Assembly (NCBI GenBank): GCA_964017155.1
Contig: OZ024862.1
Coordinates: forward strand, 43,537,219-43,601,218
Length of the DNA: 64,000 nt
DNA from: Oasisia sp. SBJ-2009
Taxonomy: Eukaryota; Annelida; Polychaeta; Sabellida; Siboglinidae
Direction: 5' to 3'
The notes beneath the pieces are model-generated. The model ran no database searches and was not told where the DNA came from. It saw nothing but the letters and a program-made list of their open reading frames with translations. Position numbers and translations under genes: made by a program. How positions within the stretch are numbered: the first letter of the stretch is position 1; the number at the start of each line of letters is the position of its first letter. Below, one piece after another: positions 583 to 63,047 of the stretch.

Positions 583-3500
583 GTGCTACAAAAGAGGTTG
601 GCTTGGCCTTGACCCGTCTATGTATAAGACATCGAAGTATAGAGGGAAAGCTAAAGACATTCACAAGGTACGGTTGAATAATATTTTAAATACTGACATG
701 TAAGGATGGGTTGAATATTCGAATCGTATTTGAAATTTTGAATAGTCAAATGTTTTCCTCCTATTCGATTGAAATTAGAAACATTGCAGCTATATAAACG
801 AATATCGCTAGAATATTTTCCTTTATGTCCTCCACTGCAAAATCAGTCCCGGACAAACTTTTACTTTCTGACTTAAGTATGAAAAAAGACCACAACTGCC
901 AAACTACTCCTCACATAATTTATATGTATAATATATATATACACACATATATATATATATATATATATATATATATATATATATACACACATACACACAC
1001 TAGCTTACAAAATAAAATCACTACATTTAAACGAATAAACTTCACAAGACAAACTTGCGTAAAACTCGCCAGCAACGCGGTGTCTTCACCTTCTGTGCCG
1101 GTTACGCGTAGCTTACCATAATATCGGTATTGTATCGAGGGGTCTTTTGTTAGCAGTGTCAGGTTAAGGCTTAAGGTTAGTGTTTCAGGTAAGTTTAGGA
1201 TTAGTTGAAGTTAGCTTAGGATTAGGTAGGGTTATGGTTACTTTAAAACTGGAATTTGTGATGGTCATTTATTTAGCGACGGCTGCAATAAATTACTGAT
1301 GTTGTGGTAAGCGCTAAGCTCCGCATAGCCACAGTATATCATGTCGAGTTTTGCACAAGTTTGTTTTCTTAATGGTATTCTTTACATTGTTTAAATGATT
1401 TATTTTGTAATCTAGTGTGTGCATATGTACATAACATATGTGAGGATAAGTTTGGCTGCTGTAAGAAGTCGATTTCATGGTTACGTCAGAAAGTTAACAA
1501 AAAGATCAATGCGTATGGCCACGATGCCGATGACACCGACACGGACATGTCCATGGGATGATGCCATGTCCTGGCAAGATACCTCGACACCGTTTGATAT
1601 TCTAATCAAATTTGAAGCCACTGAATATTCATATTTGATTCAGTATTCGAATCGTATTCGAAATTTCGAAGATATTCTATTCGATTCGAATGAAATTCCA
1701 AATTCGTCCCATTCTTACTGACATGTATGCTAATATGTGTACAGTGGTGATTTTTATTTTAGTAAATAGAACAAAAGAAACAAAATCTTTGAATGTGTTG
1801 AGATGTGTAGAGAGATGTATTCAGAAATGTGTGTGCATGAATAGATGGCACAATTGAGACAGTTAGTACATGTGAGAATTGTTGATTTCTAATGTACCAC
1901 AGTTTTATAAATGGTGACTGCATTTTGCAGTTCGATAATGGACACTTTGGTTGGTCCTCTACAAGAGAAGATGGAGGAATGGAAGAAGACCGTGGTCCAA
2001 CTTGACAAGGACCATGCTAAGGGTAAGTCAGTAACAGCTGTTTATATGATCCAACTTGACAAGGACAATGCCAAGGGTTAGCCAATGACAACTATTTACA
2101 TGGTCCAACAAGACAGGGACCATGCCTAGGGGATCTGTGATGTCATTTCTTTATTATAATCTCATTTCTATTTGTGTTTTATAGCCACAGTGATCATCGG
2201 ATATTTAAAAGTTTGTGTCACCTCTCGACGTTGTTGACGTTCTTTCTCTTCACTTTTCCTTCTGTTTCTCATTCACACAGTTTATTTTCCTCTTTCTCTC
2301 AGTCTCATTTTCGTTTTGTTCCCTCATGATTTAGTTCGCCTCTAATGTCTTTCTTTCGTGACTTCATGCTGGTTTCAGAAGTTAATTAAAATCTCTCCTT
2401 GACGTCAACTAATCACAGTCTCAAGTGTCCTGCATTCTTACAGCATACATGTTTGGGAAGGTGATCTATTTCCAAGTAACATCCCATCCCTGAATATGTA
2501 CACGCATTGGCAGGGCAGTTACACACAACACCAACTCTGGTGCAAATCAATTATATCCTCGCTATTTACAAACAAGCTCCCCTGTGAGTTTGTTGACAAT
2601 GTGTGATTTAGTCCACTGTGACATCCCGGCCCTGTTGTCACACTGCCAAACACTGGTCAGTGGTCAGTGCCAGGGATAGGTCAGTGTCCAGAGTAATTTC
2701 ACTGGTCAGTTGAGTGACACACCAGGGTCTCTTGGGCTGTCAAATCAACATTAATCACTTGGGGTATTTAAGTTGAGGGTCATCTCCTGTGGTCAGTGCA
2801 GTGCATTTGAAATGGACATCTGGTGTTTGTTTTCAACTAGTGTTGCTTACTACAAAATATGTGTTGACAAAAGTCTAGATATCATTAACTTGTTGGACCC
2901 GTTGGTGATTGGGCAATGTTGAAGGCAGGATTAAACTGCACGGCTTAGTTTATGACATTGTGGTGAAAGCAATATTTGGACATGATATCTCCACTGGTGG
3001 GTGTTCAGTTCAATATCTCTTATGTCTGTGCATCAGTGGCATCATTGAAGCGTGGTGATTGCCAATAACACATCCATACACCAGGCAGTGTCTTCTGACA
3101 CTAGGACACTCTAGTAGTGGTGACTTAGGACAACTTGTACAGAATTACCAACAACATTGTAGTAACGGGCACTATTAAAGTTACCAACAACATTGTAAGT
3201 TCACTAATAAGAGACTTGAAAACAACAGTTTTAAATAATATAGTAATTACTATTATTATAACATGCAGTTATAAATAAACCTAAATTGTATGACATGGTT
3301 TCCTGATCTTTTAGCCAAGGTTTTAGTTGATTTAGTTGGCGCTGTTGAGTGCTGACTAAGTTTGTTCATTGTATATTCATGGACTTAAAAAAGAAAGATG
3401 TAATTTTCCTACAAATATATGTAATACATTATTATCATTATTATTCTTATTATTACAAACAATACAACATTTAACTAACCCGCTCTAGACATCAAGTCTG

Positions 3501-62049: not shown

Positions 62050-63047
62050 TATCAGTGTCTTATGATCTTTGGTACACCCACACACCCGTTACACCGGCAT
62101 GGACTCCAGTAAGCCTACACTATCACTGTCTTATGATCTTTGGTACACTCACACACCTGTTACACCGGCATGGACTCCAGTAAGCCTACACTATCACTGT
62201 CTTATGATCCTTGGTACACTCACACACCTTTACACCGGCATGGACTCCAGTAAGCCTACACTATCACTGTCTTATGATCTTTGGTACACTCACACACCTG
62301 TTACACCGGCATGGACTCCAGTAAGCCTACACTATCACTGTCTTATGATCTTTGGTACACCCACACACCCGTTACACCGGCATGGACTCCAGTAAGCCTA
62401 CACTATCACTGTCTTATGATCTTTGGTACACTCACACACCTGTTACACCGGCATGGACTCCAGTAAGCCTACACTATCACTGTCTTATGATCTCTGGTAC
62501 ACTCACACACCTGTTACACCGGCATGGACTCCAGTAAGCCTACACTATCACTGTCTTATGATCTTTGGTACACTCACACACCTGTTACACCGGCATGGAC
62601 TCCAGTAAGCCTACACTATCACTGTCTTATGATCTTTGGTACACTCACACACCTGTTGCACCGGCATGGACTCCAGTAAGCCTACACTATCACTGTCTTA
62701 TGATCCTTGGTACACTCACACACCTGTTACACCGGCATGGATTATGATCTTTGGTACACTCACACACCTGTTACACCGGCATGGATTATGATCTTTGGTA
62801 CACTCACACACCTGTTACACCGGCATGGATTATGATCTTTGGTACACTCACACACCTGTTACACCGGCATGGACTCCAGTAAGCCTACACTATCACTGTC
62901 TTATGATCCTTGGTACACTCACACACCTGTTACACCGGCATGGACTCCAGTAAGCCTACACTCTCACTGTCTTATGATCTTTGGTACACTCACACACCTG
63001 TTGCACCGGCATGGACTCCAGTAAGCCTACACTATCACTGTTCTTGA
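62050..63047. repeat. 71-bp minisatellite abutting the end of the minus-strand ORF
   Basis: About 14 units with cttatgatctttggtacact and caccggcatggactccagta, at a 71-bp period (for example 62281, 62352, 62423). Three central units lack the actccagtaagcctacac part and are 44 bp long. On the minus strand each full unit contains acagtgatag, which is the sequence around the stop codon (cagTGA) of the ORF ending at 63035, so the array appears seeded at that coding end. Confidence 0.92.

Follow-up and report, generated by a model that had tools for sequence, protein, structure and literature searches.

Tandem arrays at exon edges and stop codons in a probable annelid genome resemble the "mirages" of lancelets

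Tandem duplications of exon–intron boundaries, called "mirages", have been described in lancelets in the genes for Adh3, the globins BflGb6 and BflGb9, PGBD5, and troponin C (PMC3087553, PMC3902484), with PGBD5 and troponin C as further cases in the second of these papers (PMC3902484). In the available text of both, lancelet mirages are reported not to interfere with splicing. Among the matches listed in the openly licensed PMC literature, as far as their available text goes, no description of edge arrays outside lancelets was found. The initial annotation of the DNA considered here knew of no named system of this kind; mirages are the same kind.

The analysed stretch of 64,000 nucleotides (hereafter, the window) contains nine arrays of tandem repeats across an exon–intron boundary. 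As in the available accounts of mirages, both types of boundary are duplicated (here five donors and four acceptors), unit lengths vary, and splice signals are retained in many but not all copies, namely in 165 of the 176 counted within the window and in three of six copies of an array elsewhere in the genome (L066). Unlike those described in the accessible parts of the lancelet papers, the arrays found here also occur at coding ends, where they include the stop codon. For the Adh3 mirages, the same partial sources report length and somatic instability, whereas the arrays considered here are known from one assembly. On the basis of the mirage text at hand, the arrays show the mirage features that were tested; those at coding ends exceed what it describes.

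Two other systems are less similar, judging from the consulted portions of the papers describing them. Intron gain through tandemly duplicated exon segments (PMC4974935) likewise involves local tandem duplication with splice-like sequence, but the arrays found here lie within introns beside conserved exons. Introner-like elements (PMC4457414) are also repeats associated with introns; however, near-identical copies at unrelated loci were not encountered here for the one array that was searched, and no clear unit is common to different genes.

The known range of mirages is lancelets, while the host of the present arrays most likely belongs to another phylum, as indicated by its mitochondrial gene order. 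The first 10 kb of the mitochondrial contig C33 (15,483 bp) carry nad4L, nad4, nad1, nad3, nad2, cox1, and cox2 on one strand; Pfam matches support nad4L, nad4, nad1, nad3, a nad2-type protein, and cox2, and a cox1 profile match lies between the last two. The position of nad3 between nad1 and nad2 seems, from the available text of a paper on Sipunculus, to be confined to annelids and their kin (PMC2639372), and the host is therefore most likely an annelid rather than a lancelet. An earlier assignment to amphioxus, suggested by the resemblance of the arrays to mirages, was dropped in view of this contig.

Exon edges in the window were set by gene models that combined reading frames and splice sites with homology to MTSS1 and COG4. 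An MTSS1-like gene (positions 583–32,558, plus strand) was modelled with 13 exons, its 5′ part presumably lying outside the window; the predicted protein has IMD and WH2 domains, and the best solved relative of residues 1–188 is metastasis suppressor protein 1 (2d1l). A COG4-like gene (43,317–60,787, plus strand) has 21 exons encoding 751 amino acids, with COG4_N, COG4_m, and COG4_C domains and a solved-structure match to 3hr0. Between the two genes, at 39,714–41,854 on the minus strand, are LINE-type frames, one of which matches reverse transcriptase (RVT_1). Inspection by eye also revealed a MITE-like element of about 300 bp with long inverted ends in the first COG4 intron (43,680–43,965) and intronic inverted repeat pairs at 22,820–23,040 and 52,430–52,560.

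TRF returned 54 rows for the window, which were reduced to 22 arrays by joining overlapping rows by hand and removing periods below 15; 18 of these arrays, including the one at 43,536–43,586, lie in introns of the two modelled genes. The 32 introns of these genes total 44,909 bp, about 19% of which consists of edge arrays. The initial annotation had pointed to donor-type arrays at 2022, 13,604, 20,569, 27,851, and 57,272 and to acceptor-type arrays at 15,865, 47,335, 50,483, and 51,662, and all nine were exactly confirmed by TRF and the gene models. The single old acceptor copy that it placed before 59,392 was recognised by eye only and is not part of the array count.

Five of the nine splice-edge arrays, all on the plus strand, belong to the MTSS1-like gene. 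The donor-type array at 1996–2131 (exon 1931–2022) comprises 2.5 units of 54 bp, the predicted working donor after 2022 lying in the first copy. At 13,593–14,999 (exon 13,447–13,604), eight 56-bp donor-type copies, identical across the 22 bases compared, are followed by 12 copies of an 83-bp derivative. This derivative (13,997–14,999) retains the donor GTAAGT, and the exon part of the 56-bp unit is replaced in it by other sequence. The acceptor-type array at 15,527–15,884 (exon 15,865–16,020) has 11 copies of about 32 bp, all with AG, and the last of them contains the predicted working acceptor. The donor-type array at 20,530–21,997 (exon 20,459–20,569) has a 49-bp unit in 34 copies, 33 of them with GT, if degenerate copies extending to about 22,230 are counted. 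At 27,821–29,844 (exon 27,707–27,851), 40-bp donor-type copies are followed by a 37-bp variant without a donor; GT is present in all 31 copies counted. An intron of this gene also contains a C-rich array of 51 units of 17 bp (16,553–17,421), which stops 66 bp before an exon and does not include its edge.

The remaining four arrays lie on the plus strand in the COG4-like gene. An acceptor-type array with a unit of about 32 bp at 46,539–47,351 (exon 47,335–47,436) has 24 copies, including degenerate ones from about 46,453, and AG in 21 of them. A second one, at 49,277–50,508 (exon 50,483–50,589), occupies its whole intron with 31 copies of 34 bp, 30 of which have AG, and consists of degenerate units at its far end. 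The third, at 51,311–51,674 (exon 51,662–51,758), is made of eight diverged copies of about 41 bp, AG being present in all eight. The donor-type array at 57,261–58,158 (exon 57,126–57,272) has units of 31 and 40 bp in 27 copies, with GT in 21.

Each of the nine arrays carries 12–40 exonic bases at one end, and the number of copies ranges from about 2 to 34. According to homology and reading frame, the predicted working edge is in the exon-nearest copy in all nine, that is, the first copy for donors and the last for acceptors. All 18 splice-edge arrays within and outside the window have their real edge in the outermost copy, the others being the donor array of an EFHD-like gene, those of L046, L059, L066, L067, L079 (on both sides), and L080, and that of L031, which was assessed by eye. 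The outermost copy on the exon side is thus presumably the one used in splicing. In several arrays the diverged units lie at the exon-distal end. When a copy is defined as lying within 7–8 mismatches of the real splice site, retention of the GT or AG dinucleotide is lowest, at 21 of 27, in the last of the arrays listed above. Of 167 possible extensions of an exon to an inner copy in the nine arrays, 166 give a stop or a frame shift; the sole exception is the array at 2022, where the use of an inner copy stays in frame and adds 54 bases. Comparison with solved relatives shows conserved residues at the edges 2022, 13,604, and 15,865 of the MTSS1-like gene, at the edge of the COG4 exon 57,126–57,272, and at that of the EFHD-like exon, which indicates that these exon edges predate the arrays.

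Similar arrays are found where coding sequences end. On the minus strand at 34,499–34,785, six copies of the last codons and the stop codon, the real one and five diverged ones, cover the coding end and 3′ side of a gene which we take to be ELP5 after the initial annotation (a family search with a faulty query gave no match); the stop is kept in five of the six copies. The coding-end array proposed there by the initial annotation is thus borne out. Directly to the right of the window is the EFHD-like gene (L010), with EFHD1 and EFHD2 as solved relatives; at its coding end, a 52-bp unit is present in 23 copies, all with TAG, and a different exon of this gene has a donor array of six copies with GT. 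A further coding-end array had been proposed at 63,035 in a minus-strand gene of no assigned name. This 71-bp array (62,050–63,041) does cover the stop codon (63,035–63,037), but as it takes in only about four coding bases, it is a weak case. The estimate of at least ten edge arrays in the window nevertheless holds with the nine splice-edge arrays and that of ELP5. Since the ELP5 and EFHD-like arrays sit at coding ends, the feature common to the arrays is the edge of the coding sequence, not the splice junction as such.

Exactly one splice junction is covered by 9 of the 22 arrays in the window, and by 9 of the 13 arrays at least 100 bp long. The view of the initial annotation that randomly placed minisatellites would rarely include a junction agrees with a simulation in which the 22 merged arrays were placed at random in 20,000 trials, giving a mean of 0.85 and a maximum of 6 edge-clipping arrays against the 9 observed; with coverage of whole exons forbidden, the mean was 1.01 and the maximum 7. 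The GC content of exon edges is not supported as a cause, being 0.54 with an array and 0.51 without (P = 0.21).

The tendency extends to other genes of the genome. A sample of 55 exons, each with 230–450 bp of flanking sequence, was chosen from genome profile matches prior to inspection of their sequence: 48 of 78 myosin-head matches, picked by hand, at first mostly one per locus (20) and then from lower ranks (20 and 8), and 7 of 127 kinesin matches. Arrays in two adjoining stretches (L045/L071 and L046/L069) were counted once, periods below 15 and simple repeats were removed by hand, and fourteen random 10-kb stretches and the left flank (L009), for which only TRF was run, did not enter the test. 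With exon edges defined by a simple splice-site score and by reading, and less secure than those in the window, 8 of 30 arrays clip an edge versus 2.13 expected (P = 4.6e-4), one of the eight (L031) clipping the next exon instead of the chosen one. The first 40 myosin exons alone yielded 5 edge-clipping arrays of 23 (1.36 expected, P = 0.007), the last eight myosin exons none among four further arrays, and the seven kinesin exons three of three. Five of the 22 arrays that do not clip an edge sit 3–13 bp from an exon. The share outside (8 of 30) is lower than in the window (9 of 18), and the window is therefore a dense example. Together with the differences in sequence and length between units, the enrichment in both samples upholds the proposal of the initial annotation that the process recurs across genes above chance.

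The edge bias could also arise by survival alone, if arrays form anywhere, those damaging coding sequence disappear, and crowding in short introns brings long arrays up to exons. Filter and crowding alone account for 3.01 of the 18 intronic arrays when each is placed in its own intron with final array and intron lengths kept, and several outside arrays do end 3–13 bp short of an exon. One array, that at 49,277–50,508, is uninformative in this null, since it fills its intron and clips an edge with probability 1. However, 9 of 18 were observed (P = 1.7e-4). The expectation falls to 1.52 if introns are shortened by the array (P = 9e-8) and to 0.55 if one unit is placed (P = 1e-10), the outside exons are enriched as well, and crowding leaves unexplained why exon sequence is within the repeated unit. 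Because a survival filter predicts edge arrays in proportion to a small target, it is rejected strongly in the window and moderately outside it, and we regard it as an unlikely explanation, although the most plausible of the alternatives. Less probable still is that the extra copies are maintained because spare splice sites or stops are useful for redundancy or splicing control. The splice dinucleotides of the decoys differ less often than nearby intron bases (13 of 338 versus 189 of 1834 in eight arrays, Fisher P = 6e-5), and the stop is kept in every copy of the EFHD-like coding-end array, but the copies are related by ancestry, which makes neither count one of independent events, and we therefore do not claim selection on decoy splice sites. 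The consequences of inner-copy use described above and the loss of GT from half of the L066 copies also argue against usefulness.

The opposite order of events, in which exon ends were taken from intronic arrays already present, could apply to the MTSS1-like exons ending at 20,569 and 27,851, two exons outside the comparison with relatives; given the conserved edge residues of other array-bearing exons, it is very improbable as a general account. A mobile or introner-like repeat inserted many times at junctions is the least credible of all. Among 16 units, 15 of 120 consensus pairs exceed the 95% shuffle level (6 expected), and four exceed its maximum, but this control shuffles single bases and may therefore let through short motifs of simple sequence or of splice sites. 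In a search of the whole 764 Mb (33 contigs, 14 of them large; very common words skipped), the one array queried, that at 57,261–58,158 in the COG4-like gene, was found at its own locus only, in line with the remark of the initial annotation that this is not one spreading repeat.

The explanation that we favour, with a probability of about 0.72, is that the edge arrays are mirage-type minisatellites originating from small duplications across coding edges and expanding into non-coding DNA. Their units of about 20–85 bp straddle a donor, an acceptor, or a stop codon, and the tandem copies run into the non-coding side. Such an array would start with a small tandem duplication spanning the coding edge, after which the inner copy may escape the constraint on coding sequence; the array could then lengthen into the intron or the 3′ side by slippage or unequal exchange. 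The outermost copy would be kept by selection and arrays invading the exon eliminated, while the inner copies would be silent decoys, lost in splicing or never translated. The initial annotation had suggested duplication starting at junctions: the enrichment at edges stands, the initiating step itself is a proposal, and the coding-end arrays show the shared feature to be the coding edge. The simplest reading of the bias is that duplication or expansion is more frequent at coding edges, and a cause tied to splicing alone is disfavoured because arrays also occur at stop codons, which point to a property common to coding edges. More tentatively, one could speculate that coding edges, whether splice sites or stops, act as hot spots for small tandem duplications in animals as far apart as lancelets and annelids, building a substantial share of introns, as in the genes analysed here. 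If mirages are general, they would be a source of intron growth and cryptic splice sites, a mark of mutation or retention bias at coding edges, and perhaps a source of new introns, as in a model proposed for lancelet globins in the text available. The density of arrays in one genome makes a coding-edge bias testable by counting.

Two further repeats were observed outside the window. In a myosin gene on C10 (L071/L045), a 20-bp array begins 6 bp past the donor and has an inverted stretch of its own unit at one end. A 14-bp satellite near 15.0 Mb of C14 (L024) spans an entire 10-kb stretch, with an apparent change of strand near its end.
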